Of a stretch of DNA of 64,000 nucleotides, positions 27,602 to 44,301 are shown one piece after another; position 1 is the stretch's first letter, and the number at the start of each line of letters is the position of its first letter. The position numbers and the translations under genes are program-made. The DNA comes from Salipiger pentaromativorans (GTDB taxonomy: Bacteria > Pseudomonadota > Alphaproteobacteria > Rhodobacterales > Rhodobacteraceae). The DNA lies in contig NZ_JAMDHK010000001.1 of NCBI RefSeq assembly GCF_024721115.1, positions 124,001 through 188,000 on the forward strand, read 5' to 3'. A model generated the notes under the pieces. The model was given only the letters and a program-made list of their open reading frames with translations. It had not been told where the DNA came from and ran no database searches.

Positions 27602-29284
27602 TCACCCTGCGCCGAACAGCCGCTCCGCCTCTTCCGCGCTGTAGCGCCCCAGCCGCACATCCTCCTCCACCAGCGCCCTGTCGCGCGCCGCCGGATCGCC
27701 GTAGCCGCCGCCGCCCGGCGTCTTGACCCGCACCCGGTCGCCGGCACTCAGCGCAATGTCCTGCGCCTTCGAGAGATGCTCCGGCGTGAATGTCTCGCCG
27801 CTCCGCGTCACCGCGACCTCGTTCACCGCGCCGTCGCCGCCGCCCAGCACGCCCTGCGGGCCGAACCGCCCGTGATCCATCACGAAGCTCGCCCGCGCCG
27901 TGCCCCTGAGGATCTCCACCTCGTAATCCAGCCCGAACCCGCCGCGATGCGCCCCGGCCCCGCCCGAGCCCTCGCGCAGCGCGTAGCGGTGATAGAGCAC
28001 CGGGAATTGCTGCTCCATGATCTCCACCGGCGGCGCCTTGGAAATGCCGATGGTCGAGCAGCCGTTGGAAATACCGTCGCCCCCCGCATAGCCGCCATAG
28101 CCGCCGCCCGAGATCTGATACATCACATAGCTCTGCCCGGTCTCGGCCACCTCGCCGCCCAGCGCGAAATTGCCCGAAGAGCCCGCCGGCGACGCGCTCA
28201 CCCTGTCGGGCAGCGCGTCCACCAGCGCGGCAAACACCGCCTCGGCGATACGCTGGCTGACCTCCGCCGCGCAGCCCGAGACCGGCCGCGGATAATGCGC
28301 ATCGAGGAATGTGCCCTCGGGGCGGATAATTTCCAGCGGCTCGAAGGCCCCGGCGCTGATCGGCACATCGGGAAAGATGTGCCGCATGGCGAGATAGACC
28401 GAGCTGTGCGTGGTCGCCAGAACCGAGTTCATCGGCCCGGCGCAGGGCGCGCTGGACCCGGTGAAATCGAAGGTCAGCTTTTCCCCGTCGGCGGTGATCG
28501 CAAGCCGGATCTCCAGGGGGTCGTTCACCACCCCGTCGCTGTCGATCCAGGCCGTCGAGCGATAGACGCCCGGCGGAATCGCCGCGATCTGCGCCCGCAT
28601 CTGCTCGGCGGCACGGCGGCGCAGCTCGGCAATGGCCTCGCGCACGGTGTCGTCGCCATAGCGGTCGAGCAGCCGCGTCAGCCGCGCCTGCCCCACGTAA
28701 AGCGCCGCCGCCTGCGCCTTCACATCGCCGATGCGCTGATCGGCGACGCGGATGTTGGAGCAGATGATCGCGTAGATCTCCGGATCGAGCTCGCCCTGCT
28801 TGAAGAGTCGCACCGGCGGCAGGCGCAGCCCCTCCTGTTCCACCGCCGTGGCGCTGGCCGAGAACCCGCCGGGCACCGCGCCGCCGGTATCGGGCCAGTG
28901 GCCGGTATTGCTGAGCCAGCAGAAAATCTCGCCCCCGCGCCAGACCGGCATGGCAAAGCGCACATCCATCAGATGGGTGCCGCCGAGATAGGGGTCGTTG
29001 ACGATATAGATGTCCCCCGGCCGCGGCGCCGCGACGCGCCCCTCGGCGATCATCTCGATGATCTTGCGGGTGGAATGCTGCATGACGCCGACAAAGACCG
29101 GCAAGCCTTGCGAGCCCTGCGCGATCAGGCTGCCATCCTCGGCGGCATAGATTCCGTCCGAGCGGTCGTTGGCCTCGGCGATCACCGGCGAAAACGCGGC
29201 GCGGGAAAAGCTCAGATCCATCTCGTCGCAGACCTGTTGCAGCCCCGACTGGATAACGGTGAGGGTGATGGGATCGAGACTCAT
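27602..29284 (-). CDS. Hydantoinase B / 5-oxoprolinase-type subunit
   Basis: 560-residue HyuB-family protein, the partner of HyuA in ATP-dependent hydrolases that open lactam or imide rings (N-methylhydantoinase, 5-oxoprolinase, acetophenone carboxylase families). Family blocks visible are SFSRAAFSPVI, the metal-site region GDIYIVNDPYLGGTHLMD, SNTGHWPDTGG, FDFTGSSAPCAGPMN, and the glycine-rich end TPGGGGYGDP. ATG at 29284 with GGAGGAAGG 4 bases upstream is clear. It lies downstream of hyuA on the same strand; the 157-bp gap contains an inverted repeat. Ring substrate unknown; the neighbours suggest a lactam made by the adjacent molybdenum hydroxylase and reductase. Confidence 0.9.
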   Translation of the reverse strand: MSLDPITLTVIQSGLQQVCDEMDLSFSRAAFSPVIAEANDRSDGIYAAEDGSLIAQGSQGLPVFVGVMQHSTRKIIEMIAEGRVAAPRPGDIYIVNDPYLGGTHLMDVRFAMPVWRGGEIFCWLSNTGHWPDTGGAVPGGFSASATAVEQEGLRLPPVRLFKQGELDPEIYAIICSNIRVADQRIGDVKAQAAALYVGQARLTRLLDRYGDDTVREAIAELRRRAAEQMRAQIAAIPPGVYRSTAWIDSDGVVNDPLEIRLAITADGEKLTFDFTGSSAPCAGPMNSVLATTHSSVYLAMRHIFPDVPISAGAFEPLEIIRPEGTFLDAHYPRPVSGCAAEVSQRIAEAVFAALVDALPDRVSASPAGSSGNFALGGEVAETGQSYVMYQISGGGYGGYAGGDGISNGCSTIGISKAPPVEIMEQQFPVLYHRYALREGSGGAGAHRGGFGLDYEVEILRGTARASFVMDHGRFGPQGVLGGGDGAVNEVAVTRSGETFTPEHLSKAQDIALSAGDRVRVKTPGGGGYGDPAARDRALVEEDVRLGRYSAEEAERLFGAG

Positions 29285-29326
29285 GACCTTCCTCCAAAGG
29301 ATCGCCCGGCCACAGGGGCGCGCCGT

Positions 29327-29391
29327 GCGTATTTGGAAAGAGAAGAAGACAGGGGCGCCTCTTTGCCCCTTCTTCTCTTTGACAAATACGC
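29327..29391. repeat. Inverted pair of the GCGTATTT...AAAGAGAAGA element
   Basis: A forward copy (29327-29348, starting GCGTATTTGGAAAGAGAAGA) and an inverted copy (29369-29391) face each other around a loop containing AGGGGC/GCCCCT, forming a large hairpin between the two hydantoinase subunit genes. Arms differ only at GG versus GTC near the middle. Confidence 0.8.
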
Positions 29392-29441
29392 ATGCGGCAT
29401 CGGCCATGGCAGGGTCGCGGGTCCGGTCGAGGGCGCGGCGC

Positions 29442-31499
29442 TCATGATCCGCCCCCCAGCGTGACGATCAGATTGCCGTCGCCATCCTGGGTGGCCCGGT
29501 CGCCCGGTTCCAGCACCAGCGTGCAGTCCATCTGCTCGACAATCGCCGGGCCGGTGAGCGTGGCCTCGGGCGGCAGAAAATCGCGCCAGTAGACCGGCGT
29601 GTCGGTCCAGCTCTCGAAATAGACCCTGCGCGTGCCGGTCCGCGCCTCGGCCAGCGTGGCCTTGCGGCCCGCCGCGTCGATCAGCGCCGAGAGGTCGATC
29701 TCCGGGCGGCGGCCGATCACCGAGGTGTTGAGATTGACCAGCGCCGGGCGGATTTCCGGCAGGCGCACCTGGAAGCGGCGGAAATAGGCCTCCTCGAAGA
29801 GCGCTTGCAGATCGTCGCGTGTGGGCGTGGCGGAGGCGAGCGGGACGCGCAGCAGATGGGTCTGGCCGATGAAGCGCATCTCAACCGAATGGGTCACGTG
29901 CAGCTCGGCGATCTCGACCCGCTCGCGGGCGATGGCGGCGCGGCCCTCCCCGGTCTGGCGTGCGAAGAGCGCATGCACCTCCTCCATGTCGCAGACATCG
30001 AGCGGCTTGTTCACCGTGGCGACGTAATCGTGGCGCAGATCGGCGACGATGCAGCCCAGAGCGTTGGTGATGCCCGGGCGCGCGGGCACCAGCACGCGCG
30101 GCACGCCCAGCTCGCGGGCGATGGCGCAGGCATGCAGCGGCCCGGCGCCGCCGAAGGCGAAGAGCGCGAAATCGCGCGGGTCTTCGCCCAGCGAAACGGA
30201 GACCATGCGCACCGCATCGGCCATCTTCGCCGTGGCGATGCGCAGCACCGCCGCCGCCGCCTCTGTCGCATCGAGCCCCAGCCGGTCGCCGAGCGTTTCG
30301 GCAAAGGCGGCGCGGATCGTCTCCAGCGACACCCCTCCGGCGCCGGTGTTCAGCCGCTCCGGGTTCATCCGTCCAAGCAGCATATTGGCATCCGAGATTG
30401 TCGGCTCCGTGCCGCCCTTGCCGTAGCAGATCGGTCCCGGCACCGAGCCCGCGCTTTCCGGCCCCACCTGCAACAGCCCCGCCGCATCGACCCGCGCGAT
30501 GGAGCCGCCGCCCGCGCCCACGGTGCGCACATCGACCATGGGCACATGGATCGGCATGGCGTATTCGATCTCGATCTCGTGGCTCACCGCCGGGTCGGCG
30601 CCCCGGATCATCGCCACATCGGTGCTGGTGCCGCCCATATCGTAGGTCAGCAGGTCCGGGATGCCCGCGCGGCGCCCGGTATAGGCCGCCGCCATCACGC
30701 CGGAGGCCGGGCCGGACATCACCGTCTTGGCGGCCTCCTCCGCCACCACCCGTGCCGAGACCATGCCGCCATTGCCGTTCATCACCAGCAGGTCGCGCCC
30801 GTAACCGCGCTCCGACAGCCGGTCGGCCAGCCGCTCCACATAGCGGCGCAGCAGCGGCTGCACCGAGGCGTTGACCGCCGCCGTCACCCCGCGCTCGTAT
30901 TCGCGGCTTTCCGAAATCAGCGCGTGGCCGAGGGTGATATTGCCGTTGGGCCAGATCTCGCGGGCGATCTCTCCGGCGCGGATCTCATGCGCGGGGTTGG
31001 CATAGGCGTGCAGGAAATGAATCACCAGCGCCTCGCAGCCCTTTTCCACCAGTGCGAACAGCGCGACGCGCAGGGCGTCTTCGTCGAGCGGCAGATAGAC
31101 GCTGCCATCGGCCAGCAGCCGCTCGGGGATCTCCAGCCGCAGGTCGCGCGGGATGATCGGGCGGAACTGGCCGGTCATGCCATAGGCATGCGGCCTTGTG
31201 CGGCGGCCGAGCTCCAGCACGTCGCGGAACCCCTGCGTGGTGATCAGCCCGGTCTTGCAGAGCCGACGCTCCAGCACCGCGTTGGTGGTGGTGGTGGTGC
31301 CGTGCACGATGAGATCCAGCGCGGCGGCATCGACCGAGGCCGCATCCAGCGCCGCCAGCACCCCCATCGCCTGATTGTCGAGCGTGGTCGGCACCTTGGC
31401 GAGTTTCACCGCCGCGGCGCGGCTGTCATAGAACACCAGATCGGTGAAGGTGCCGCCCACGTCGATCCCGGCAAAGGCGCCGGTCAGCTCGTCTGTCAT
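29442..31499 (-). CDS. Hydantoinase A / 5-oxoprolinase-type ATPase subunit
   Basis: 685-residue HyuA-family protein, the ATP-using subunit of ATP-dependent lactam/imide hydrolases. ASKHA-type nucleotide-binding motifs are visible: GIDVGGTFTD (11-20), HGTTTTTNAV (66-75), DMGGTSTDVAMI (287-298) and the later FAFGGAGPLHA. The ATG at 31499 overlaps the TGA of the molybdenum hydroxylase gene (ATGA), indicating translational coupling and a shared job. Known relatives hydrolyse 5-oxoproline or hydantoins, or carboxylate acetophenone or acetone. The context, with a ring hydroxylase and a ring reductase, favours ATP-driven opening of a lactam; that is inference. Confidence 0.9.
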   Translation of the reverse strand: MTDELTGAFAGIDVGGTFTDLVFYDSRAAAVKLAKVPTTLDNQAMGVLAALDAASVDAAALDLIVHGTTTTTNAVLERRLCKTGLITTQGFRDVLELGRRTRPHAYGMTGQFRPIIPRDLRLEIPERLLADGSVYLPLDEDALRVALFALVEKGCEALVIHFLHAYANPAHEIRAGEIAREIWPNGNITLGHALISESREYERGVTAAVNASVQPLLRRYVERLADRLSERGYGRDLLVMNGNGGMVSARVVAEEAAKTVMSGPASGVMAAAYTGRRAGIPDLLTYDMGGTSTDVAMIRGADPAVSHEIEIEYAMPIHVPMVDVRTVGAGGGSIARVDAAGLLQVGPESAGSVPGPICYGKGGTEPTISDANMLLGRMNPERLNTGAGGVSLETIRAAFAETLGDRLGLDATEAAAAVLRIATAKMADAVRMVSVSLGEDPRDFALFAFGGAGPLHACAIARELGVPRVLVPARPGITNALGCIVADLRHDYVATVNKPLDVCDMEEVHALFARQTGEGRAAIARERVEIAELHVTHSVEMRFIGQTHLLRVPLASATPTRDDLQALFEEAYFRRFQVRLPEIRPALVNLNTSVIGRRPEIDLSALIDAAGRKATLAEARTGTRRVYFESWTDTPVYWRDFLPPEATLTGPAIVEQMDCTLVLEPGDRATQDGDGNLIVTLGGGS

Positions 31500-34207
31500 G
31501 TGGTCCTCGACAGGATGGCCGCGCGGATCTTGTCCGGGGTCGCGGGCAGATGGTGGATGCGCGCGCCCGTGGCATGGGCGATGGCGTTCAGCACGGCGGG
31601 CGCGGTGGGGATGAGGCAATGCTCGCCCAACCCCTTGGCGCCGTAAGGCCCGTGCGCGTCGCCGCTCTCGACGATCAGCGTGTCGATGGGGGGCACGTCG
31701 CCGATGGTGGGGATGAGGTAATCGTGCAGGTTCTCGGTGCGGCCCGGCAGGAATTCCTCCATCAGCGCCATGCCGATGCCCTGCGCCACGCCGCCCTCGA
31801 TCTGGCCCTCGACCAGCAGCGGGTTGATGGCCTTGCCGACATCATGCGCCGCCACAATACGCCGCAGCTTCACCGTGCCAAGCGCCATATCGACCTCCAG
31901 TTCGCAGATCTGCGCGGCGGTGCCGAAGACGGCGTAGGGGTCGCCCTGCCCGTTCGCGTCGAGCGGCGTGGTCGGTGGATCGTAGCTCTCGATAGCCTCC
32001 AGCGCATAAGGCGCGCCCGGCGGCAGCTCGACCCGCACGGTGGTGCCCCCGTCGGTGAGCAGGATGCCCTCTTCGGTGAACGCAATCTCGGCGGCGTCCG
32101 AGACATTGCCCAGCCGCAGGATCTGCGCCCGCAGCGCTTCGCCGCAAAGCCGGGCGGCATTGCCGGAGATATAGGTCTGGCGGCTGGCAGATGTCTTGCC
32201 CGCATCGGGGGTGATGTCGGTATCCGGCCCCACCCGCGTCACGGCGGAGACCGGCACGCCCAGGGCCTCGGCAAAGATCTGGGTGATGACCGTGTTCGAG
32301 CCCTGCCCGATGTCCACCGCACCCTGATGCAGCATCAGCATGCCCTCTGCCGTCACCCCCGCGCGGATGGTCGAGGGGTTCGACATCGAGGTGTTGCCGC
32401 AGCCATACCAGCCCGCCGCCACGCCGACCCCCCGCTTGCGGTCCTCATGGCTGGCGTTGAACGCCGCCACCTCGGCTTGCGCCCTGTCCCAATGCGGTTT
32501 CAGCGCGTCGAGACAGGCGTCGATGCCCATGCCGGTGTCAAAGACCTGCCCGGTCACGGTCGGATCGCCGTTCACCAGGCAGTTGCGGCGGCGGAAGTCC
32601 AGCCGGTCGAGGCCCAACTTTTCGGCCAGCATGTCGTAGAGCTGCTCCTGCGCCAGCGCCGATTGCGGCACGCCGAAGCCGCGAAAGGCCCCGGCGGGCG
32701 CGGTGTTGGTGTGAATCCCCGCGCTTTTCGCCTGATAATTCGGCGTCCGGTACGGCCCGCTGGCGTGGATCGGCACGCGGTTCGCCACGGTCGGCCCCCA
32801 GCTCGCATAGGCGCCGGTGTTGAACACGCCGTCAAAGCGTGCGGCGACGATATGGCCATCGGCATCGGCGCCGATCTCCATCACCATGTCCGAGGGGTGG
32901 CGCTTGGTCGAGGTCGAGATCGACTCGCCCCGCGTATAGGCGATGCGGACCGGGCGGTTCAGATGCCAGGCGGCCAGTGCCACATAGGGCTGCGCGGTGA
33001 GATCCAGCTTGGAGCCGAAGCCGCCGCCCACCGCCGTGGGCAGGATGCGCACCGCCTCGGGCGCGAGCCCCATGATCGTGGCGATGCCGTCGCGGTTCAT
33101 ATAGGGCGCCTGGGTGCAGCAGGAAATCTCGATCCGGTCCCCGACCCGGCGGGCCGAGGCCGCCTCGGGCTCGATATAGCCATGCTCGATGAAACCGGTG
33201 GAGAAGCGGCCCGAGACCACATGCGCGGCACCCTTCAGCGCGGCATCGGCATCGCCGCGCGCCACATAGCCCCGGCACATGACGTTTTCGGCGCGGCTCT
33301 GGTGCAGTTGCGCGGCGCTCTCGGCCCCCTCCGGGGTGAGGATCGCGGGCCGTTCCTCCCACTCGACCGGAAACGCTGCCATGGCGTCGAGCGCCTCCTG
33401 CGTGCCGACCACCGCCGCCACCGCCTCGCCCTTGAATCGCGCCTCGCCCTCGGCAAAGACCGGCTGGTCTTCGAAACCGGGGATGACGCCGAAACGGTTC
33501 TCGCCGGGGATGTCGGCGGCGGTGAGGATCAGGTCGAGCCCGTTGGCCTCGCGAAACGCCTCAAGATCGCCGAAACGAAAGGTCGCCCGGTGATAGGGCG
33601 AGCGGATCACCCGCACCACCAGCGCGTCGCTGGGCGCCACATCATCACCGAAGCGCTCCTCGCCGGAGAGTTTAGGCCCGCCGTCGAGCCGAGCGATGGG
33701 CGCGCCCACGCCGCCCTCGGTCAGCGGTTCGGTGCCGGACGCATCGAGCACCGCCGCGACGATCTTGCGATACCCCGTGCAGCGGCAGAGCACGCCACCG
33801 AGCGCATCCGCGACATTCTCCTCGCTCAGTGCCGCCCCCGAGCGCAGCAGCGCCACCGCCGAGACCATCATGCCGGGCGTGCAGATCCCGCATTGCGCCG
33901 CCTGATGGCGCTGAAAGCTCTGCGCCAGCCGCGCCGCGTCGCGATCCGCCGCCACAAGCCCGGCCTGGGTTTCCACCGCGCAGCCCTGCACCTGCCCCGC
34001 CGCCATCAGGCAGGAACAGACCGGCGCGCCATCGACCAGCACCGTGCAGGCGCCGCAATCGCCCGCGTTGCAGCCGACCTTGACGTCCTTCGCCCCGGCC
34101 ACCTCGCGCAGCACATCCGACAGCCGCGCCGTGGCCTCGGCGGGCACGGTGACCTCGGCGCCGTTGAGGACAAAGCCGATATGGCCCTGCGGTGCATCAA
34201 GCGACAT
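31496..34207 (-). CDS. Molybdenum hydroxylase: fused 2Fe-2S + molybdopterin subunit
   Basis: 903-residue xanthine dehydrogenase-family enzyme in which the iron-sulfur and molybdopterin parts are one chain. The first 2Fe-2S cluster is plant-type (Cys46, 51, 54, 66) and the second is CGIC...CRC (Cys106, 109, 141, 143). The Moco domain starts near residue 165, with motifs AVGGGFGSK, GAFRGFGVPQ and VDIGQGSNT. The catalytic base is Glu862 in GAKGLGE. No signal peptide, so it is cytosolic. It overlaps the FAD-subunit gene upstream by 11 bp and hyuA downstream by 4 bp. Such enzymes insert water-derived oxygen next to ring nitrogen, or oxidise aldehydes; substrate is not determined. Confidence 0.92.
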   Translation of the reverse strand: MSLDAPQGHIGFVLNGAEVTVPAEATARLSDVLREVAGAKDVKVGCNAGDCGACTVLVDGAPVCSCLMAAGQVQGCAVETQAGLVAADRDAARLAQSFQRHQAAQCGICTPGMMVSAVALLRSGAALSEENVADALGGVLCRCTGYRKIVAAVLDASGTEPLTEGGVGAPIARLDGGPKLSGEERFGDDVAPSDALVVRVIRSPYHRATFRFGDLEAFREANGLDLILTAADIPGENRFGVIPGFEDQPVFAEGEARFKGEAVAAVVGTQEALDAMAAFPVEWEERPAILTPEGAESAAQLHQSRAENVMCRGYVARGDADAALKGAAHVVSGRFSTGFIEHGYIEPEAASARRVGDRIEISCCTQAPYMNRDGIATIMGLAPEAVRILPTAVGGGFGSKLDLTAQPYVALAAWHLNRPVRIAYTRGESISTSTKRHPSDMVMEIGADADGHIVAARFDGVFNTGAYASWGPTVANRVPIHASGPYRTPNYQAKSAGIHTNTAPAGAFRGFGVPQSALAQEQLYDMLAEKLGLDRLDFRRRNCLVNGDPTVTGQVFDTGMGIDACLDALKPHWDRAQAEVAAFNASHEDRKRGVGVAAGWYGCGNTSMSNPSTIRAGVTAEGMLMLHQGAVDIGQGSNTVITQIFAEALGVPVSAVTRVGPDTDITPDAGKTSASRQTYISGNAARLCGEALRAQILRLGNVSDAAEIAFTEEGILLTDGGTTVRVELPPGAPYALEAIESYDPPTTPLDANGQGDPYAVFGTAAQICELEVDMALGTVKLRRIVAAHDVGKAINPLLVEGQIEGGVAQGIGMALMEEFLPGRTENLHDYLIPTIGDVPPIDTLIVESGDAHGPYGAKGLGEHCLIPTAPAVLNAIAHATGARIHHLPATPDKIRAAILSRTT

Positions 34208-35039
34208 GAGCGGCCTCCTCTGCCATGGCGTCCACGAGCGTGCGGGTCACAAGTATGCGAACCGCCTCGTCGCGATAGGCCGCCGGCGCCCGGACATCGC
34301 CGATGGGCGCCAGCTCTGGAAACGGATAGTCCTGCGCGATTTCGGGCACGTCCGAAAGGCGCTTGCCGCTCAGGACGGATTCCAGATCGGGCAGCCGCCG
34401 CGCCGCCGGCGAACAGGCGCCCACGGCGATGCGCGCGCGCGCGATGCGGCCCGCCTCCGTCTCGACCGTCGCCGCGACCATGGCGATGGAGATCACCAGA
34501 TAGCGCCGCGCCCCGAGCTTGCGAAACGCCCCCCGCCCTTCGGCGGCGGGCACATGCACCGCGGTCACGATCTCGCCCGGGCGCAGCGCGGTGGCGCGCG
34601 GGCCGGTGATGAAGGCGTCGAGCGGCAGCCGCCGCGTGCCCGTCTCCGATTGCAGCGCGACCTCGGCATCCAGCGCCAGCAGCGCCGGCACCCCGTCCGC
34701 CGCCGGAGAGGCGTTGCAGAGATTGCCCGCCACCGTACCCGCGTTCTGGATCTGCACCGACCCGACCTCGCGCGCGGCGGCCCGGAGCCCGTCGAAGAGC
34801 GGCGGCAGATCGGCCCGCAGCAGCTCGCTCCAGGTGGTCGCGGCGCCGATACGCCAGCCCTCCGGCCCGGAGGTCACGCCGCGCAGCCCGGCAACGCGCG
34901 TCAGATCGACCATCTCGCCGGGCGGCGGGCCATCGCGCAGCGCCGGATATAGATCGGTTCCACCCGCCAGCACCACCGCTCCGGGCGCCCGCATCAGGGC
35001 CAGCGCGGCGTCGAGCGATTCGGGACGATGCAAGGACAT
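34197..35039 (-). CDS. Molybdenum hydroxylase FAD subunit
   Basis: 280-residue FAD-binding medium subunit (CoxM/XdhB type) that passes electrons from the iron-sulfur clusters of the catalytic subunit to an acceptor. FAD-contact motifs are visible: VVLAGGTDLYPALRDG (about 22-37) and AGTVAGNLCNASPAADGVPALLAL (about 99-122), with the C-terminal CO-dehydrogenase flavoprotein domain after about 175. GGAG precedes ATG 35039. It is the first gene of the leftward arm of a divergon; its promoter region holds a 16-bp palindrome only 40 bp from the start codon. Confidence 0.92.
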   Translation of the reverse strand: MSLHRPESLDAALALMRAPGAVVLAGGTDLYPALRDGPPPGEMVDLTRVAGLRGVTSGPEGWRIGAATTWSELLRADLPPLFDGLRAAAREVGSVQIQNAGTVAGNLCNASPAADGVPALLALDAEVALQSETGTRRLPLDAFITGPRATALRPGEIVTAVHVPAAEGRGAFRKLGARRYLVISIAMVAATVETEAGRIARARIAVGACSPAARRLPDLESVLSGKRLSDVPEIAQDYPFPELAPIGDVRAPAAYRDEAVRILVTRTLVDAMAEEAAHVA

Positions 35040-35078
35040 GGCGAGTCTCCGGGCTTGTCGCTTGGACGAGTCTTTTCA

Positions 35079-35094
35079 TTCGTATGCAAACGAA
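35079..35094. promoter_or_regulatory. Operator-like palindrome, copy 1
   Basis: TTCGTATGCAAACGAA: outer arms TTCGT / ACGAA around a 6-base centre, 40 bp upstream of the leftward FAD-subunit start. Only one base differs from the copy at 35250-35265. Probable binding site of the cluster's MarR-type regulator (inference). Confidence 0.75.
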
Positions 35095-35249
35095 GATACC
35101 CGCAGCCTATGAGCGCGGCGCGGAACCTGTCAATCCGCTTGCACGCGGCATGCCCCGCCGCCGCGCGGAATGCTGAAATTCTCACCACGGCGCCGGCCCG
35201 CCCCCGCCCCCGCCCTGCCGCCGCTTGACAGAAAGCCCCCGAACATGCG

Positions 35250-35265
35250 TTCGTATACAAACGAA
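35250..35265. promoter_or_regulatory. Operator-like palindrome, copy 2
   Basis: TTCGTATACAAACGAA, 35 bp upstream of the rightward reductase start. Same 16-bp motif as copy 1 except A for G in the centre; the two centres are 171 bp apart. A TTGACA hexamer at 35225-35230 lies just upstream, so the site would cover the -10 region of a rightward promoter. Confidence 0.75.
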
Positions 35266-35300
35266 TTGACGCCACCAGGCCAGCGACAGGAGCCCGCGAC

Positions 35301-36818: not shown

Positions 36819-37678
36819 GCTTTCACGAGGCGCCCATCGTGCGGATGGCCCGGGATGGCCGGATGCGGCTGAGCCACGGCCCCATCGACGTGATCGTGAC
36901 CGCCGAGGGCCCGGCCGAGGCGGCCCGCGCCGCGCTGCGCCGGGCGCATGTGGCTTTCGATCCGGTGCTGAACGATCTTTGCGCCGAACTGCCCCGGCTG
37001 CGCGCGGCGCAGGGGCCGGCGCCACGCGGCGCCGTCGCCCGCCGGATGCAGCGCGCGACCGATCGTTTCGCGCCCGCCTTCGTGACGCCGATGGCGGCGG
37101 TGGCCGGGGCGATCGCCGATCACCTGCTTGCAGCGATGCTGATCCCCGGCCACGGGCTCGAGCGCGCGCATGTGAACAATGGCGGCGACATCGCGCTCTG
37201 GACCGGCGCCGCGCCGCTGCGGCTGGCGGTCTGCGAAGACCCGCTGACCCGCGCCCCCGGCGCCCGTGCCACCATCGCCGCCGGCGCCGGCATCGGCGGC
37301 GTGGCGACCTCGGGCTGGCGCGGGCGGTCCCAGTCGCTGGGCATCGCCGATGCGGTCACCGTGCTGGCGCGCGACGCGGCGCAGGCCGATGCCGCCGCCA
37401 CGCTGATCGCCAATGCGGTGGACCTGCCCGGCCACCCCGCCATCGCGCGCCGGCCCGCCTCGGCCCTCGCGCCCGACAGCGATCTGGGCGACCGCCCGGT
37501 CACGGTCGCGGTCGGCCCGCTGGGCGCGGCCGAGATCCGCAAGGCGCTGGACGCCGGGCGGACATTGGCCGAAGAGTACAGCAGCCGGGGTCTCCTCCAT
37601 GCCGCCTGCCTTGCGCTGGCCGGCGAACGGGTGGTGCTCGGGTCCATGATTGCCGAAAAGGAGCCATGCCATGGCTGA
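36815..37678 (+). CDS. UPF0280 family protein, ApbE-like fold
   Basis: 287-residue protein of the UPF0280 family, which is grouped with ApbE-like flavin transferases. Two ApbE-like segments are visible: VNNGGDIALW (120-129; compare the NxGGD nucleotide site) and ATSGW...ADAVTV (164-183; compare the metal-binding TSG and VTV blocks). Unlike typical ApbE it has no lipoprotein or export signal, so it would act in the cytosol. Its ATG overlaps the reductase stop (ATGA), tying the two proteins together. Since the characterised reductase carries a covalent flavin, a role as its dedicated flavin transferase is plausible but unproved. It overlaps the next gene by 8 bp. Confidence 0.8.
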   Translation: MSFHEAPIVRMARDGRMRLSHGPIDVIVTAEGPAEAARAALRRAHVAFDPVLNDLCAELPRLRAAQGPAPRGAVARRMQRATDRFAPAFVTPMAAVAGAIADHLLAAMLIPGHGLERAHVNNGGDIALWTGAAPLRLAVCEDPLTRAPGARATIAAGAGIGGVATSGWRGRSQSLGIADAVTVLARDAAQADAAATLIANAVDLPGHPAIARRPASALAPDSDLGDRPVTVAVGPLGAAEIRKALDAGRTLAEEYSSRGLLHAACLALAGERVVLGSMIAEKEPCHG

Positions 37679-38255
37679 CGTCAAACTCCGCAAGACGCTG
37701 ATTCAGGTCGAGACCATCTATCACGAGGGCGGTCCCGCCCCCGAGGTGCCGCAGAAACGCGCCGCCGCGCTTGCGGTCATCGAAAACCCCTTCGCCGGCG
37801 GCTACACCGAGGACATCGCGCCGTTCATGAAGGATCTGGAACCCCTGGGGGTGCAGATGGCTGGCGAGCTGATCGCCGCGCTCGGCGGCGACGCGACGGC
37901 AATCGAGGGCTATGGCAAGGGCGCCATCGTCGGGGTGAACGGCGAGGTCGAACATGGCGCGCTCTGGCATGTGCCCGGCGGCTATGCGATGCGCGATTCC
38001 ATCGAGAAGAGCATGGCCATCGTGCCCTCGACCAAGAAGGTCGGCGCGGCGGGCACACGGCTCGACGTGCCGGTGACCCATACCAACGCCTCTTACGTGC
38101 GCTCGCATTACGATGCGGTCGAGGTCGGCATCCCCGACGCCCCGCGCCCCGACGAACTGGTGCTGGTGCTGGTGATGACCACCGGCGGCCGGGTGCATGC
38201 CCGTGTCGGCGGCCTGACGAAAGAGGACGTCAAGGGCGAGGACGGATTGCGGTGA
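37671..38255 (+). CDS. DUF1185 'amino acid synthesis' family protein, copy 1
   Basis: 194-residue DUF1185 protein. The family has a solved structure with a chorismate-mutase-like (YjgF-type) trimeric fold, and databases call it 'amino acid synthesis', but no reaction is established. Conserved blocks are AVIENPFAGGYTEDI, EGYGKGAIVG, VPSTKKVG, THTNASYVRSHYDA and PDAPRPDE. AAAGGAG precedes ATG 37671, which lies inside the end of the UPF0280 gene. It overlaps its paralogue downstream by 4 bp. Compared with copy 2 it keeps a longer N-terminus (MADVKLRKTLIQ) and similar core; the two probably assemble together. Confidence 0.85.
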   Translation: MADVKLRKTLIQVETIYHEGGPAPEVPQKRAAALAVIENPFAGGYTEDIAPFMKDLEPLGVQMAGELIAALGGDATAIEGYGKGAIVGVNGEVEHGALWHVPGGYAMRDSIEKSMAIVPSTKKVGAAGTRLDVPVTHTNASYVRSHYDAVEVGIPDAPRPDELVLVLVMTTGGRVHARVGGLTKEDVKGEDGLR

Positions 38256-38830
38256 AACTGCGCAAGATCATCACGCAGGTCGAGGAGACCCGCTCGGAGA
38301 TGGGGCGGGCGGTGACGCCGCCCGCCCGCCGGGCGCTCGCGGCGGCGGTGATCGAGAACCCGTTTGCCGGGCGCTATGCAGAGGATCTGTCGGAGCTGAT
38401 CGACACCGGCGCCACGCTGGGCGATCTGCTGGGCCGCGAGGCGCTGGCGGCGCTCGGCTGCGGCGCGCAGGCGGTCGAGGGCTATGGCAAGGCCGCGCTG
38501 GTGGGCGAACTGGGCGAGCTGGAACATGCCGCCGCCCTGCTGCACCCCAGGCTCGGCGCGCCGCTGCGCGCGGTGCTAGGCGGCGGCAAGGCGCTGGTGC
38601 CCTCCTCCAAGGCCATCGGACGCGCGGGCGAGATTCTCGATATTCCGCTGGGGCACAAGGACGCCGCCTATGTGCGCAGCCATTTCGACGGCATGCGGCT
38701 GCGCCTGCCCGACGCCCCGCGCCCGCGCGAGATCGTGGTGGCGGTGGCGTTGCAGCAGACCGGCCGCCCGCTGCCCCGCGTCGGCGGGCTGCGACATGAC
38801 GAGGTCCTTGGCGAGGACGGGCTGCGATGA
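38252..38830 (+). CDS. DUF1185 'amino acid synthesis' family protein, copy 2
   Basis: 192-residue paralogue of the preceding protein, aligning along its full length: LRKIITQVEETRSEMG, AVIENPFAGRYAEDL, EGYGKAALVGE, LVPSSKAIG, HKDAAYVRSHFDG and PDAPRPRE. It starts with a GTG whose last bases form the stop of copy 1 (GTGA), so translation is coupled and equal amounts are expected. The shared EGYGK, SK and RSH residues are candidates for an active site at subunit interfaces. After it, 206 bp without a gene precede the transporter genes. Confidence 0.85.
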   Translation: MKLRKIITQVEETRSEMGRAVTPPARRALAAAVIENPFAGRYAEDLSELIDTGATLGDLLGREALAALGCGAQAVEGYGKAALVGELGELEHAAALLHPRLGAPLRAVLGGGKALVPSSKAIGRAGEILDIPLGHKDAAYVRSHFDGMRLRLPDAPRPREIVVAVALQQTGRPLPRVGGLRHDEVLGEDGLR

Positions 38831-39036
38831 CCGTCTGCGCGCCACCACAGGCCCTTGGCGCCGCTTCGCGCCGCGCCCGGCTTGCCTGGCCGGCGGCGAT
38901 CGCCCAAGCTCGGGGCGGACGCCCCGTCCCGACCCGCCGCCCGTCCGGCGCCCCTTTCAGAACCCGATACCCGGCACAAAGACCGGATCATCCCAGGGAG
39001 CCCCGAGGGCCCCGACCAACAGGAGAGTGATACGCG

Positions 39037-40245
39037 ATGAACCTGATGAGACGCACCGTGCTGGCCACGGCCGCCGCCCTGGCCCTGACCCCTGCCGCAG
39101 CTTTTGCGCAGGACACGATCAAGGTCGGCGAGATCAACCATTACAAACGGATGGCCGCCTTTGCCGAGCCCTACAGGAAGGGCATCGAACTGGCGCTGAG
39201 CGAGATCAACGCCGATGGCGGCGTGCTGGGCAAGGATCTGGAATTCATCTTCCGCGACGACCAGGGCGACCCCGCCGAGGCGGTGAAGATCGCCGAAGAA
39301 CTGATGACCCGCGACGGCGCGGTGATGTTCACCGGCTCGATCCTGTCCAACGTCGGGCTGGCGCTGTCGAGCTTCGCCAACGAGAAGAAATATCTCTACC
39401 TCGCCTCCGAGCCGCTGGCCGACACGCTGGTGTGGAAATCCGGCAACCCCTACACCTTCCGCCTGCGCGTCTCGACCTGGGTGCAGGCCGCCATGCTGGC
39501 CGAGGAGGCCGCCAAGACCGACGCGGTGACCTACGCCACCATCGCGCCGAACTACGCCTATGGCACCGATGCGGTCGAGGCGTTCAAGGCCAACCTCAAG
39601 ATGCTGAAGCCCGAGGTGGAATTCGTCGCCGAGCAATGGCCGGCGCTGTTCAAGATCGACGCGGGCGCCGAGGTGCAGGCCATCGAACGCGCCAAGCCCG
39701 ACGCGATCTACAACGTCACCTTCGGCACCGACCTTGCCAAATTCGTGCGCGAGGGCACCGACCGGGGGCTGTTCGACGGCCGTCCCGTCTACGGGCTGCT
39801 GACCGGCGAGCCGGAATATCTCGAACCGCTGGAGGACGAGGCGCCCGAGGGCTGGTTCGTCACCGGCTTCCCCTGGTACGGGTTCGAGGACGGCACACCG
39901 GGCAAGACCTTTGTCGATGCCTATGAGGCCTTTACCGGCGAGACGCCGAAGATCGGCTCGCTGGTGGGCTACATGACCGCGCAGAGCATCGCCGCCGCGA
40001 TTGCCAAGGCGGGCGCCACCGATACCGAGGCGCTGCGCATGGCCTTCGAGGGGCTCGAGGTCGAAAACACCCCCATCGGCACGCTGCATTACCGCGAGAT
40101 CGACAACCAGTCGACGCTGGGCGCCTGGACCGGCACCACGGCGGTGGTGGACGGCAAGGGCGTGATGGTCGATTGGACATATAACGACCCCGCGCCCTAC
40201 ACGCCCTCCGACGAGGACATCAAGGCGATGCGCCCCGCCGAGTGA
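39037..40245 (+). CDS. Branched-chain-amino-acid-type ABC substrate-binding protein
   Basis: 402-residue periplasmic binding protein of the LivJ/UrtA (HAAT) type. A signal peptide (1-22, ending AFAQ) precedes a two-lobed Peripla_BP_6 domain: KVGEINHYKRMAAFAEPYRKGIELAL, then FRDDQGDPAEAVKIAEEL and FTGSILSN. AGGAG lies upstream of ATG 39037. Family ligands range from amino acids and urea to aromatic and heterocyclic acids. Its place after the reductase/DUF1185 genes suggests it captures the substrate or a precursor of this pathway. A 13-bp hairpin follows the stop, likely keeping its mRNA level high. Confidence 0.9.
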   Translation: MNLMRRTVLATAAALALTPAAAFAQDTIKVGEINHYKRMAAFAEPYRKGIELALSEINADGGVLGKDLEFIFRDDQGDPAEAVKIAEELMTRDGAVMFTGSILSNVGLALSSFANEKKYLYLASEPLADTLVWKSGNPYTFRLRVSTWVQAAMLAEEAAKTDAVTYATIAPNYAYGTDAVEAFKANLKMLKPEVEFVAEQWPALFKIDAGAEVQAIERAKPDAIYNVTFGTDLAKFVREGTDRGLFDGRPVYGLLTGEPEYLEPLEDEAPEGWFVTGFPWYGFEDGTPGKTFVDAYEAFTGETPKIGSLVGYMTAQSIAAAIAKAGATDTEALRMAFEGLEVENTPIGTLHYREIDNQSTLGAWTGTTAVVDGKGVMVDWTYNDPAPYTPSDEDIKAMRPAE

Positions 40246-40254
40246 CACGCTTCG

Positions 40255-40290
40255 CCTCGCAGGGGGGACGGCTACCGCCCCCCTGCGAGG
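40255..40290 (+). promoter_or_regulatory. Intercistronic mRNA hairpin after the binding-protein gene
   Basis: Thirteen-base-pair stem CCTCGCAGGGGGG / CCCCCCTGCGAGG with an inner CGG/CCG extension and no T-run. Such structures between a binding-protein gene and its permeases usually protect the upstream mRNA rather than stop transcription. Confidence 0.6.
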
Positions 40291-40348
40291 AAAGCCCGCA
40301 AGGGCTTGACGAGCACCGCCCCACCGCGCCTGCACGAAAGTCCCTCCC

Positions 40349-42205
40349 ATGGCCTTCTTCTTCGCCCAGTTCCTCACCGGGCTTGCCAATGCCGCCGCGC
40401 TGTTCCTCGTGGCCTCCGGCCTGTCGCTGATCTTCGGCGTTACCCGGATCGTGAATTTCGCGCATGGCTCCTTTTACATGCTCGGCGCCTTCATCGGCAT
40501 CGTGCTGATGGATCTGCTGCCCGGCCATGTCGACTTCTGGGGCGCGATCCTGCTCACCGGCCTTGCGGTGGGGCTCATCGGCGCCGTGGTCGAGATGGTG
40601 GTGCTGCGCCCGATCTACCGCGCGCCGGAGCTCTTCCAGCTTGTCGCCACCTTCGGGGTGATCCTCGTCATCCAGGATCTGGCGCTGATGATCTGGGGCG
40701 CCGAAGACCGGCTCGGCCCCCGCGCCCCCGGCCTGCGCGGCGTCTGGCGGATCTTCGGCGAGCCGGTGCCGAAATACGACATCGTGCTCATCGCCATCAC
40801 CCCCTTCATCCTCTTCGCGCTCTGGTATCTCATCGCCCGCACAAGGCTGGGCGTGCTGGTGCGCGCCGCCACGCAGGACCGCGAGATGGTCGGCGCGCTC
40901 GGCGTCAACCAGGCCTGGCTCTTCACCGGGGTCTTTGCGCTCGGCTCGGCGCTGGCGGGGCTCGGCGGCGCGCTGCAACTGCCCAAGGGCGGCGCCGATC
41001 TGCTGATGGATTTCAACATCATCGGCGCGGTCTTCGTCGTGGTCGTCATCGGCGGCATGGGCTCCCTGCCCGGCGCCTTCATCGCCTCGGTGCTGATTTC
41101 GGTGCTGAACGTCTTCGGCGTGACCTACCTGCCGCAATCGACGCTGGTGCTGATGTATGTGGTCATGGCCGTGGTGCTGATCGTGCGCCCCTACGGCCTT
41201 CTGGGCCGCGAGGAGGTCGCGGGCGAACACGGTCAGGTCGGCGCGCCGGAAACCCCGATCCGCCCCTACGGCCCCAAGGGCATGGCGCTGGTCGCCGCCC
41301 TGCTCACCCTTCTGGCGCTGCTGCCCGCCTTTGCCGAGCCCTTCGTGCTGACGCTGGTGGTCGATATGGTGGTCTTTGCGCTGTTCGCCGCCAGCCTGCA
41401 TTTCATCCTCGGCTCCGGCGGGCTGGTCAGCTTTGGCCATGCGGCGTTTTTCGGTGGCGGCGCCTATGCGGCGGCGCTGCTGGTCTATCACACCGGCACG
41501 CCGATGGAGCTGGCCTTTCTCTTCGCGCCGCTCGCCGCCGGGCTGCTGGCGCTGGGGATCGGCTGGTTCTGCATCCGCCTCACAGGCGTCTATTTCGCCA
41601 TGCTGACCTTGGCCTTCTCGCAGCTCGTCTGGAGCCTCGCCTTCCAGTGGCGCTCGGTCACGCGCGGCGATGACGGGCTGGTCAATATCTGGCCCGCCGA
41701 CTGGCTGAACGGCAGCGTACCCTATTACTATTTCGCGCTGGCCTTTGGCGTCGGCGGCATCCTTTTCCTGCGCCATGTCATTCACGCGCCCTTCGGCTAC
41801 GCCCTGCGCGCCGGGCGCGACAGCCCGCGCCAGGCCGAGGCCACCGGCATCGACGTGAAGCGCGTGCAATTTGTGGCCTTCGCGCTGGCGGGCGCCATGG
41901 CGGGGCTCGCGGGCGGGATCTTTGTCTTCTCCAAGGGCTCGGTCTTCCCGACGGAGCTGGAGATCGCCAAGAGCTTCGACGCGCTGATCGTGGTCTTTCT
42001 CGGCGGGGTGAAGACGCTGGCGGGGGGCGTCGTGGGCGCCAGCTTCATGACCGTGGTCGAGGACTGGCTGGTGCGGCTGGAATACTGGCGCCTGCTGCTG
42101 GGGCTGGTGATCATCGCGGTGGTGATCGTGATGCCCGAAGGCATCGTCGGCACCCTGCGCACGCTCTGGCGGCGCATCCGCCACAGCGATGAGGAGGCGG
42201 TCTGA
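40349..42205 (+). CDS. Fused branched-chain-type ABC permease (LivH-LivM)
   Basis: 618-residue membrane protein joining the two permeases of a HAAT importer. Residues about 1-290 form a LivH-like half ending near VLIVRPYGLLG. Residues about 310-600 form a LivM-like half (GSGGLVSFGHAAFFGGGAYAAALL, then RAGRDSPRQAEATGID as the coupling loop to the ATPases). A polar linker (EEVAGEHGQVGAPETPIRPYG) separates them. In most genomes these are two genes. The stop overlaps the next start by one base (TGATG). The transported ligand is unknown. Confidence 0.9.
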   Translation: MAFFFAQFLTGLANAAALFLVASGLSLIFGVTRIVNFAHGSFYMLGAFIGIVLMDLLPGHVDFWGAILLTGLAVGLIGAVVEMVVLRPIYRAPELFQLVATFGVILVIQDLALMIWGAEDRLGPRAPGLRGVWRIFGEPVPKYDIVLIAITPFILFALWYLIARTRLGVLVRAATQDREMVGALGVNQAWLFTGVFALGSALAGLGGALQLPKGGADLLMDFNIIGAVFVVVVIGGMGSLPGAFIASVLISVLNVFGVTYLPQSTLVLMYVVMAVVLIVRPYGLLGREEVAGEHGQVGAPETPIRPYGPKGMALVAALLTLLALLPAFAEPFVLTLVVDMVVFALFAASLHFILGSGGLVSFGHAAFFGGGAYAAALLVYHTGTPMELAFLFAPLAAGLLALGIGWFCIRLTGVYFAMLTLAFSQLVWSLAFQWRSVTRGDDGLVNIWPADWLNGSVPYYYFALAFGVGGILFLRHVIHAPFGYALRAGRDSPRQAEATGIDVKRVQFVAFALAGAMAGLAGGIFVFSKGSVFPTELEIAKSFDALIVVFLGGVKTLAGGVVGASFMTVVEDWLVRLEYWRLLLGLVIIAVVIVMPEGIVGTLRTLWRRIRHSDEEAV

Positions 42206-42975
42206 TGTCCGAGATCCTGCGTGTCGAAAACCTCAGAAAGAGCTATGACGGCTTTCTCGCTGTCAACGGCGTGTCCTTCGCGGTGGCGAAGGGCGAGCTG
42301 AAGGCGCTGATCGGCCCCAACGGGGCGGGCAAATCCACCTGCTTCAACATGCTCATGGGGCAGCTCAAACCCAGCGCCGGCGAGGTCTATCTCGACGGCC
42401 AGCGCATCACCGGCAAGCGTCCGCGCGAAATCTGGCGGCGCGGCGTCGGGCGCACCTTCCAGATCACCGGCACCTATCAATCGATGAGCGTGATCGAGAA
42501 TGTGCAGATGGCGCTGATGAGCCACCACAAGCGGATCTTTTCCATCGCGCCCCGCGCCTGGAAGCTCTACCGCGACGAGGCGTTCGAGTTTCTCGACACC
42601 GTGTCCATGGCCGATCAAGCCGACCGGCCCTGTTCGGTGCTGGCCTATGGCGATCTCAAGCGGCTGGAGCTGGCGATTGCACTCTGCCACCGCCCGCGCC
42701 TCTTGCTCATGGACGAGCCCACGGCGGGCATGGCGCCCTCGGCGCGGATCGAACTCATGCAGCTGGTGGCCGACATCGTGCGGGATCAGGGCGTTTCGGT
42801 GCTCTTTACCGAGCATGACATGGACGTGGTCTTTGCCCATGCCCATCACATCATGGTGCTGAACCGGGGCGAGCTGATCGCCGACGGCTCCGCGACCGAG
42901 GTGCGCAACAACCCGCAGGTGCAAGAGGTCTATCTGGGCGGCGGCACGCTCTTCAAGGAGGACGCAAATGCTTAG
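42205..42975 (+). CDS. ABC transporter ATPase, LivG-type
   Basis: 256-residue ATP-binding subunit. Walker A is GPNGAGKST, Walker B LLLMDEPTAGMAP, and the H-loop FTEHDMD. The signature reads LAYGDLKRLELA instead of LSGGQ, normal for LivG-type ATPases. The C-terminal VQEVYLGGG tail is typical of the family. It overlaps LivF by 8 bp and works with it as a heterodimer under the fused permease. Confidence 0.92.
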   Translation: MSEILRVENLRKSYDGFLAVNGVSFAVAKGELKALIGPNGAGKSTCFNMLMGQLKPSAGEVYLDGQRITGKRPREIWRRGVGRTFQITGTYQSMSVIENVQMALMSHHKRIFSIAPRAWKLYRDEAFEFLDTVSMADQADRPCSVLAYGDLKRLELAIALCHRPRLLLMDEPTAGMAPSARIELMQLVADIVRDQGVSVLFTEHDMDVVFAHAHHIMVLNRGELIADGSATEVRNNPQVQEVYLGGGTLFKEDANA

Positions 42976-43669
42976 CGTCGAGCGCATCCACAGCTATTAC
43001 GGCAAGGCGCATATCCTCAACGACCTGTCCTTCGAGGTGCGGCGCGGCGAGGTGGTGGCGCTGCTGGGCCGCAACGGCGCCGGCAAATCCACCACGATGA
43101 AATCGGTGATGCAGCTGGTGCGCCCGCGTCAGGGACAGGTGACGTTTCAGGGCCGTGAGCTGGTGGGCGAGCCCGCCTTCCGCGTCGCCAAATGCGGCAT
43201 CGGCTACGTGCCCGAGGACCGGCGCATCTTCACCGATCTGACGGTACTTGAGAACCTTGAGGTGGGCCGCCAGCCAAAGCGCGAGGACGCGCCGTTCTGG
43301 ACGCAGGAGCAGCTCTTCGAGATCTTCCCCAACCTTTTCGAGCGCCGCGCCAACCGGGGCAAGCACATGTCGGGCGGCGAGCAGCAGATGCTGACCATCG
43401 CGCGCACGCTGATGGGCAACCCGGCGCTGCTGCTGCTCGACGAGCCTTCGGAGGGCATCGCGCCGGTGATCGTCGAGCAGATGGCCGAGACCATCAAGAC
43501 GCTGAAGGCCGAGGGGCTGACGGTGATGATCTCGGAGCAGAACCTGCATTTCGCCCGCGCCGTGGCGGATCGCGCGATCATCATCGAGGGCGGGGAAAAG
43601 AAATTCGACGGCAGCTTTGCCGAGCTGGAGGCACACCCCGAAATCCGCGACGCCTATCTTTCGGTCTGA
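42968..43669 (+). CDS. ABC transporter ATPase, LivF-type
   Basis: 233-residue partner ATPase. Walker A GRNGAGKST, signature MSGGEQQMLTIAR, Walker B LLLLDEPSEGIAP, and the final DAYLSV end typical of LivF. It starts inside the last codons of the LivG-type gene. It completes the importer: one binding protein, one fused permease chain, two ATPases. The MarR-type regulator follows after 185 bp. Confidence 0.92.
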   Translation: MLSVERIHSYYGKAHILNDLSFEVRRGEVVALLGRNGAGKSTTMKSVMQLVRPRQGQVTFQGRELVGEPAFRVAKCGIGYVPEDRRIFTDLTVLENLEVGRQPKREDAPFWTQEQLFEIFPNLFERRANRGKHMSGGEQQMLTIARTLMGNPALLLLDEPSEGIAPVIVEQMAETIKTLKAEGLTVMISEQNLHFARAVADRAIIIEGGEKKFDGSFAELEAHPEIRDAYLSV

Positions 43670-43854
43670 GGCGGGTCTGGCGCCCCCTATGAGATCGAGG
43701 AGCGCGTCGCATTCGACCGCAAGGAGAGCCAGGCACACCCCCCGCAAGGAATCGCCCACAACGCATGCGGCCTTCGTCGCTAACACGCCGCTGCGGCATT
43801 GCCCTCGGACGACATTAACGCTAGGGCAACCCACCGAACAGGAGACCGTAGCCC

Positions 43855-44301
43855 TTGAACGATTTCCCCAAAGCCCGCACCAGCGCCGAGCACGGCTATC
43901 TGCTGGACGAACAGATCGGATTTCTGCTGCGCAAGGCCTATCAGCGCAACTCCACCATCTTTGCCGAGACGGTGCCGGGCAAGCTGACGCCGACGCAGTT
44001 CTCGGTGATGCACCGGCTGGCCGAGGACGGACCGATGTCTCAGAACCGGCTGGGCCGTTCGGTGGCGATGGACGGCGCGACCACCAAGGGTGTGGTCGAC
44101 CGGCTGATCGCGCGTGGGCTGCTGCGCACCGCCCCCGACCCCGATGATCGCCGGCGCCATCTGGTCTCGCTGACGGCGCAGGGCGTGGCGCTGATCGACG
44201 AGGCGGTGGAGGCGGCGATCGAGGTCAGCGCCGAAACCCTGGCCCCGCTGCGCGAACGCGAGCGCGAGACGCTGCTGCGGCTTTTGAAGAAGCTGGGGTA
44301 A
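43855..44301 (+). CDS. MarR-family transcriptional regulator
   Basis: 148-residue winged-helix regulator. The wHTH core spans about residues 35-105: LTPTQFSVMHRLAEDGPMSQNRLGRSV, recognition helix GATTKGVVDRLIARGLL, and the wing DPDDRRRHLVSLT. It probably works as a dimer on a 16-20-bp palindrome, and the two TTCGTATRCAAACGAA sites in the cluster's divergent promoter fit that size. The start appears to be TTG at 43855 with AGGAG about 11 bases upstream. The 185-bp gap before it contains no copy of the palindrome, so self-regulation through that motif is not evident. Ligand is likely a pathway compound (inference). Confidence 0.85.
   Translation: MNDFPKARTSAEHGYLLDEQIGFLLRKAYQRNSTIFAETVPGKLTPTQFSVMHRLAEDGPMSQNRLGRSVAMDGATTKGVVDRLIARGLLRTAPDPDDRRRHLVSLTAQGVALIDEAVEAAIEVSAETLAPLRERERETLLRLLKKLG

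Follow-up and report, generated by a model that had tools for sequence, protein, structure and literature searches.

A divergent gene cluster of Salipiger pentaromativorans that most likely represents the known reductive nicotinate pathway with an exchanged ring-opening enzyme

Known nicotinate pathways and the Salipiger cluster

In the nicotinate fermentation of Eubacterium barkeri, a molybdenum (Mo) hydroxylase and 6-hydroxynicotinate reductase (Hnr) act in sequence and the ring is then opened by an enamidase. The nic pathway of Pseudomonas putida begins with NicAB, continues to 2,5-dihydroxypyridine, and has NicR as a MarR-type regulator. In 2012, an Hnr-centered nicotinate cluster was assigned by BLAST in Azorhizobium caulinodans ORS571, B. 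japonicum USDA110, R. palustris HaA2, and strain SG-6C; that paper also reports that SG-6C grew on nicotinate with 6-hydroxynicotinate as a transient compound, that the SG-6C Hnr homologue is 42% identical to the E. barkeri Hnr, and that the aerobic A. caulinodans uses the route through 1,4,5,6-tetrahydro-6-oxonicotinate (THON), which ends via glutarate (PMC3511419, citing Kitts 1989, 1992). According to PMC9304392, E. barkeri and A. caulinodans open the ring alike, in what is there named the anaerobic pathway. Here, we analyzed a divergent gene set at positions 27602–44301 of a 64,000-nucleotide stretch of Salipiger pentaromativorans DNA (hereafter the window; positions 124,001 to 188,000 of contig NZ_JAMDHK010000001.1).

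The cluster of the window is most likely the known nicotinate pathway with the ring-opening enzyme exchanged, and we consider it quite probable that it is a catabolic divergon for nicotinate following the reductive (THON) route, with the hydantoinase-type pair HyuA and HyuB (HyuAB) opening the ring. It appears to share with E. barkeri the families of the first two enzymes, but no orthologue of the E. barkeri ring opener, enamidase, was found in the genome to which the window belongs. Points in common with the P. putida pathway are the first enzyme of 14 of 146 related loci, which is NicAB-like, and the MarR-type regulator of the window, but in P. putida the ring is cleaved oxidatively whereas here it would be reduced. 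The likeness to the Azorhizobium/Bradyrhizobiaceae cluster consists in the aerobic route and in an Hnr cluster with a Mo hydroxylase; the first three steps of that cluster were transferred by BLAST from E. barkeri (PMC3511419), whose opener is enamidase, whereas the window has HyuAB and two DUF1185 genes. The earlier examination of the letters alone (the sequence-only reading) had presented the cluster as undescribed and as a new pathway in an aerobe. Both claims fail because PMC3511419 had already published an Hnr nicotinate cluster for Azorhizobium/Bradyrhizobiaceae in 2012 and refers to the route in aerobic A. caulinodans. The divergent gene set itself was confirmed by coordinates and by Pfam and NCBIfam matches, and the proposed outline of uptake, hydroxylation, ring reduction, and ring opening appears to be supported by the published Hnr cluster together with comparative genomics.

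In the proposed scheme, a Liv-type importer would take up nicotinate, which a hydroxylase made of an FAD subunit and a fused 2Fe-2S/molybdenum cofactor (Moco) chain would convert to 6-hydroxynicotinate, as its family, its neighbors, and its exchange with NicAB-like enzymes suggest. Hnr, recognized by annotation and by the published cluster, would reduce the ring to THON, with UPF0280 loading or supporting its flavin. HyuA and HyuB would then open the enamide lactam at the expense of ATP, like 5-oxoprolinase and caprolactamase, in the place of enamidase. The product of this opening, 2-(aminomethylene)glutarate, would be hydrolyzed to 2-formylglutarate and ammonia and lead on to glutarate, as in Azorhizobium. 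Both arms would be governed by a MarR protein through a pair of near-identical palindromes.

Distribution of HyuAB, enamidase, and DUF1185

Matches to Hnr defined 186 loci (L053–L238), reduced to 179 after the removal of seven near-duplicates and to 146 in which each flank of Hnr spans 7 kb or more; L001–L052 were left out of the locus counts, and L068 and L141 are a single record. The presence of a gene in a locus was scored as the best tblastn match above identity and coverage limits, and genes near the border of a stretch may be missed. The core recurred in the 179 distinct loci at Hnr identities of about 58–91% and UPF0280 lay in the same locus as Hnr in 144 of 146, hence the cluster is not a product of chance. 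The 146-locus survey found the gene set conserved together in relatives, contrary to what the sequence-only reading had named as one of its two refuting outcomes.

HyuA or HyuB was present in 60 of these 146 loci and an enamidase homologue in 46, both being found in none and neither in 40; an amidohydrolase is encoded in many of the loci that lack HyuAB. The one of Sulfitobacter (L136), a homologue of enamidase, aligns with the E. barkeri enzyme (PDB 2VUN) over 383 positions without a gap and shares 172 of these residues (45%). The search was extended to whole genomes, with HyuA standing for the pair, in 80 Hnr genomes: the genome of the window (G000) and 79 selected from 100, among them every one of the 40 in which neither gene lies near Hnr. 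All 80 proved to have HyuA or enamidase, and two (G806 and G868) had both. The identities fell into separate groups in this set, HyuA orthologues reaching at least 57% (next match 51%) and enamidases at least 61% (next match 44%). The genome of the window has HyuA and, in the whole-genome search, no enamidase at E ≤ 1e-20. The two genomes with both ring openers carry a separate DUF1185a–DUF1185b–enamidase group (G806 C11:55970-58290 and G868 C11:29790-32149), which lies on a different contig from Hnr.

A wider sample gave a similar picture. Among 292 genomes evenly drawn from the order Rhodobacterales, 77 had Hnr (78 before the exclusion of G206, in which Hnr is a stop-containing fragment of 47 residues); 37 of them had HyuA only, 38 enamidase only, one both (G261), and one neither (G231). 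HyuA orthologues (E ≤ 1e-225) occurred in 38 of the 292 genomes, all 38 with Hnr, and none of the 215 genomes without Hnr had a HyuA orthologue or enamidase at the limits used. These E-value limits were chosen after the identity gap was known from the 80-genome searches, two matches at 52–53% identity were accepted as enamidase, and at most four HyuA and six enamidase candidates were scored per genome, misses like G231 being possible. The presence and absence of HyuAB and enamidase was thereby shown to be complementary, and the confinement of HyuA and enamidase to Hnr genomes is a stronger result than their exclusivity. When the HyuAB/enamidase label was placed on the Hnr tree (FastTree only; 179 rows, 25 of them unlabeled and two with both labels), at least ten changes were needed, nine of them forced by well-supported branches. 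Together, the loci and both genome searches make the earlier proposal that HyuA/HyuB stands in for enamidase appear well supported.

HyuB (27602..29284, minus strand, with its start at 29284 and GGAGGAAGG upstream of it) belongs to the hydantoinase B/oxoprolinase family (PF02538, 8e-160), and HyuA (29442..31499, minus strand) to the hydantoinase A/oxoprolinase family (PF01968/PF05378/PF19278); the HyuA sequence contains DVGGTFTD and DMGGTSTD, read directly. The pair carries the Hydant_A_N, Hydantoinase_A, Hydant_A_C, and Hydantoinase_B domains of the ATP-dependent cyclic amide hydrolases (caprolactamase, 5-oxoprolinase, N-methylhydantoinase), but remains below every equivalog cut-off of the known enzymes and differs from them in that, in the order sampled, HyuA occurs only with Hnr. 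Against the caprolactamase CapAB models (NF050156/NF050157), the alpha and beta scores were 497 and 302 bits (cut-off 1000), and against ApcA/ApcC/ApcD of acetophenone carboxylase 127–316 bits (equivalog cut-offs 1250–1500). HyuAB and enamidase probably share their function, and the chemistry of HyuAB would be an ATP-driven ring opening. A link between HyuAB and nicotinate was not met in the open-license PMC papers searched, which is no proof of its absence in print.

The HyuAB scores also bear on a different explanation, in which the pathway is the same but divides further down into two branches, one marked by HyuAB and the other by enamidase, HyuAB acting on another amide or as an acetophenone carboxylase-like carboxylase and the ring being opened by an unrecognized enzyme. 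HyuAB does match acetone and acetophenone carboxylases, and three of 118 distinct genomes hold both enzymes, but the lactam hydrolase families score higher (caprolactamase alpha 497 versus acetophenone carboxylase 316 bits), PDB entries named N-methylhydantoinase and 5-oxoprolinase lead the matches, and no third ring-opening candidate was recognized by eye among the gene families present in at least six loci, several open reading frames (ORFs) there being antisense artefacts. The distribution of the second DUF1185 gene speaks for such branches: in the 80 genomes, DUF1185b (scored at 61% identity or more) was found in all 31 that have enamidase alone, two of two with both enzymes, and eight of 47 with HyuAB alone, or nine of 47 if a 57% partial match in G514 is admitted. 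The two versions thus differ in more than one gene, since DUF1185b goes with enamidase and mostly not with HyuAB. All in all, we consider the two-branch explanation unlikely.

Both DUF1185 proteins of the window, DUF1185a (37671..38255, plus strand; closer to BB2672, 3BYQ) and DUF1185b (38252..38830, plus strand; closer to SPO0826, 2QTP), match PF06684 (AA_synth) with 235 and 230 bits at a gathering score of 27. DUF1185b belongs chiefly with enamidase, the Salipiger group being one of the exceptions in which it is retained beside HyuAB. In six of 47 HyuAB-only genomes, DUF1185 had no match at E ≤ 1e-10; with DUF1185b tracking enamidase, this speaks against the earlier suggestion that DUF1185 acts on the product of HyuAB, and the candidate role as deaminase of that product is weakened by the same six genomes. 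Kinship-corrected tests on independent pairs (73 of the 80 genomes used) placed DUF1185b with enamidase in four of six pairs with two ties (p 0.125), and gave no support for an opposition of HyuA and DUF1185b (1.9 of four pairs opposite, 2.1 tied, median p 0.5). The DUF1185 fold resembles Bacillus chorismate mutase according to PMC2954203, a likeness that does not settle its role.

First enzyme, Hnr, and UPF0280

The Mo hydroxylase of the window consists of the fused 2Fe-2S/Moco chain (31496..34207, minus strand, five Pfam domains) and the FAD subunit (34197..35039, minus strand, PF00941 and PF03450). The former matches chains A (5e-69) and B (7e-59) of the E. barkeri nicotinate dehydrogenase 3HRD. 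A xanthine dehydrogenase-type (XDH-type) Mo hydroxylase accompanied Hnr in 118 of the 146 loci and a NicB-like one in 14, with no locus having both and 14 having neither. The NicA/NicB pair of Neorhizobium sp. NCHU2750 is annotated as nicotinate dehydrogenase, and the small subunit of a Comamonadaceae plasmid pair is 61% identical to that of Neorhizobium. Two types of Mo hydroxylase on one core therefore point to nicotinate as the shared substrate. The broad substrate range of the sequence-only reading, with its lactams, pyrimidines, and hydantoins, thus probably narrows to nicotinate.

Another pyridine carboxylate or an N-methyl betaine (trigonelline, homarine, picolinate) might be degraded instead, with a Rieske enzyme of the relatives acting as N-demethylase. 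A Rieske oxygenase is encoded in 42 of 146 loci, and in 39 of these the importer is of the same Liv type as in the window; 26 of the 146 encode a homologue of ferredoxin-NADP reductase. In such loci, the two enzymes may feed an N-methylated substrate, e.g., trigonelline, into the path. Homarine is moreover a ubiquitous marine metabolite according to PMC13390433, which cites a 2026 study of its catabolism; the open-license literature searched on homarine gave its ecology but no list of genes. Nevertheless, neither enzyme was found among the ORFs of the window cluster, and the genome-wide search, made for the Rieske protein only, gave no better than a 23% partial match; NicAB-like enzymes occur in some relatives, and the published cluster is one for nicotinate (PMC3511419). 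A betaine or another pyridine carboxylate as the true substrate seems to us quite improbable.

Hnr (35301..36818, plus strand) is named after the annotation of its relatives. Its nearest named loci are those of S. abyssi (91%) and other Salipiger, and among 26 plasmid records with an Hnr 61–87% identical, 17 are annotated as 6-hydroxynicotinate reductase, three as hypothetical, and six have no listed gene. No Pfam or NCBIfam model matched it at E ≤ 1e-3, and a sequence comparison with solved structures gave no convincing relative (best E 0.52). Residues C21, C24, C28, and C38, with a spacing of the Fe-S type, as well as C230 and S232 are kept in 180 of 180 aligned rows.

The Hnr loci show further features. 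As the 26 plasmid records show (e.g., L133, L134, and L136), various Rhodobacterales, rhizobia, and other bacteria carry Hnr on a plasmid or secondary replicon, a location that may favor the swapping of modules. In L133 (1-4806, a plasmid of Sagittula stellata E-37), genes annotated as CoA transferase, cupin, fumarylacetoacetate hydrolase, PrpB, and PrpF lie beside the cluster, beyond a transposase gene; PrpB/PrpF-like enzymes also act late in the E. barkeri route. Five loci of the SAR116/Puniceispirillum type (L087, L092, L097, L101, and L119) combine the enamidase version with a gene of the aldehyde:ferredoxin oxidoreductase family, the product of which could act on 2-formylglutarate, and four of the five have a dimethylsulfoniopropionate demethylase-like gene beside the cluster (both families checked for L087 only). 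The record L067, titled Enemella evansiae TN21-6, has an Hnr 86% identical to an alphaproteobacterial one and is probably a mislabeled or mixed assembly, Enemella being an actinobacterium.

UPF0280 (36815..37678, plus strand) scored 320.5 bits with NCBIfam NF003322 (curated cut-off 290). Its structure model reached a predicted local distance difference test score (pLDDT) of 93.7, and all 23 Foldseek matches at E ≤ 0.001 were either DVU1097 (2O34), a member of the UPF0280 family itself, or flavin transferases of the ApbE type, among the latter 5MGY, 4XGV, 3PND, and 1VRM with E-values of 1e-4 to 1e-3 (best 1.4e-4). The predicted fold is thus common to UPF0280 and the ApbE/Ftp/FmnB flavin transferases at an identity of about 13–16%, and the model suggests that UPF0280 probably loads or supports the flavin of Hnr. 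HxxDPxTG, the catalytic motif of ApbE, was not evident by eye in the UPF0280 alignment. In Hnr, the residue two places after S232 is Thr in 150 of 180 rows; this Thr of GCGSAT was considered as a universal ApbE-type flavinylation site and rejected because 28 of the 180 rows have Ala in this final position. The flavin role stays a proposal since the motif is not evident and the acceptor Thr is not invariant. The open-license literature searched contained no assigned function for UPF0280 (2O34) or DUF1185 (2QTP, 3BYQ).

Several observations weigh against the reading of the cluster as a nicotinate pathway with HyuAB as the ring opener. Enamidase requires no ATP, so an ATP-driven substitute looks wasteful, and the substrate of HyuAB is unreadable from its sequence because the scores lie far below the cut-offs of every characterized family matched. 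The best single chain for the Mo chain of the window is the aldehyde oxidoreductase 1SIJ, hence family membership alone is no proof of nicotinate. Across the 118 distinct genomes, the three with both ring openers are joined by one with neither, and by the kinship-corrected test, the exclusivity as such is not significant since only four independent pairs remain (mean 3.9 opposite, 0.1 tied, median p 0.125). The predicted model of Hnr was poor (pLDDT 65.6, no fold match at E ≤ 0.001) and was discarded as a source for its fold. The 42% identity to the E. barkeri Hnr concerns the SG-6C homologue and not the Hnr of the window, the name of which rests on relatives, and the published cluster was assigned by BLAST (PMC3511419).

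Divergent promoter, remaining genes, and meaning of the cluster

A 16-base palindrome, TTCGTATRCAAACGAA, is present twice between the arms in near-identical copies, as TTCGTATGCAAACGAA at 35079..35094 and TTCGTATACAAACGAA at 35250..35265, both found by sequence search. At up to two mismatches, the window contained three matches, one of them the reverse reading of the first site, versus 0.05 expected. The MarR-family protein (43855..44301, plus strand; PF01047, 3e-12) probably binds both palindromes as putative operators and controls both arms. Of 186 related loci, 14 have a palindrome of a relaxed form, TTCGT-N6-ACGAA, starting or lying 44–103 bases ahead of their Hnr match on its upstream side; it may reflect kinship because these loci are nearly all close relatives, 13 of the 14 having an Hnr at least 83% identical. 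The common divergent promoter with its two near-identical palindromes and the confinement of HyuA orthologues to Hnr genomes also argue against the two arms being unrelated neighbors with an incidental co-occurrence. HyuA or the importer does lie outside the examined stretch around Hnr in a number of relatives, but such a coincidence is hardly credible, and we treat the arms as one divergon.

The importer genes follow DUF1185b on the plus strand and encode the substrate-binding protein (39037..40245, Peripla_BP_6), a fused LivH+LivM permease (40349..42205), and the ATPases LivG (42205..42975) and LivF (42968..43669). The last three were assigned from the ORFs and their annotated relatives in L133 (87%, 90%, and 88%, respectively) and not by a hidden Markov model search. 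The Pfam cut-offs were passed by hydantoinase A and B, the Mo/Fe-S and FAD domains, both DUF1185 proteins, Peripla_BP_6, and MarR. The overlapping of the genes was confirmed: seven of 11 within-arm junctions overlap by 1–11 bases and the other four have gaps of 103–206 bases. Beyond the cluster, the minus-strand ORFs at 46320-46988, 47051-47830, and 47853-49510 look by eye like an isochorismatase-type hydrolase, an SDR oxidoreductase, and spermidine/putrescine-type ABC permeases, and are probably a separate operon.

The data raise a wider and more tentative hypothesis, which we rate as possible but rather doubtful in its full form, that Proteobacteria have two complete versions of the reductive nicotinate pathway: one with enamidase and an obligate DUF1185b, and one with an ATP-driven HyuAB acting as THON lactamase, in which DUF1185 is dispensable, Hnr being matured in both by the ApbE-fold UPF0280. 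If this is true, THON would be a substrate new to the HyuAB superfamily and flavin loading would be the first function for the orphan UPF0280 family. The orphan HyuA/HyuB clade gains a testable substrate, THON, and UPF0280 (2O34) and DUF1185 (2QTP, 3BYQ), all with solved structures, gain a strong genomic context. Altogether, these results suggest that marine and soil bacteria have repeatedly replaced the enzyme for one step in the breakdown of a vitamin by an unrelated one.

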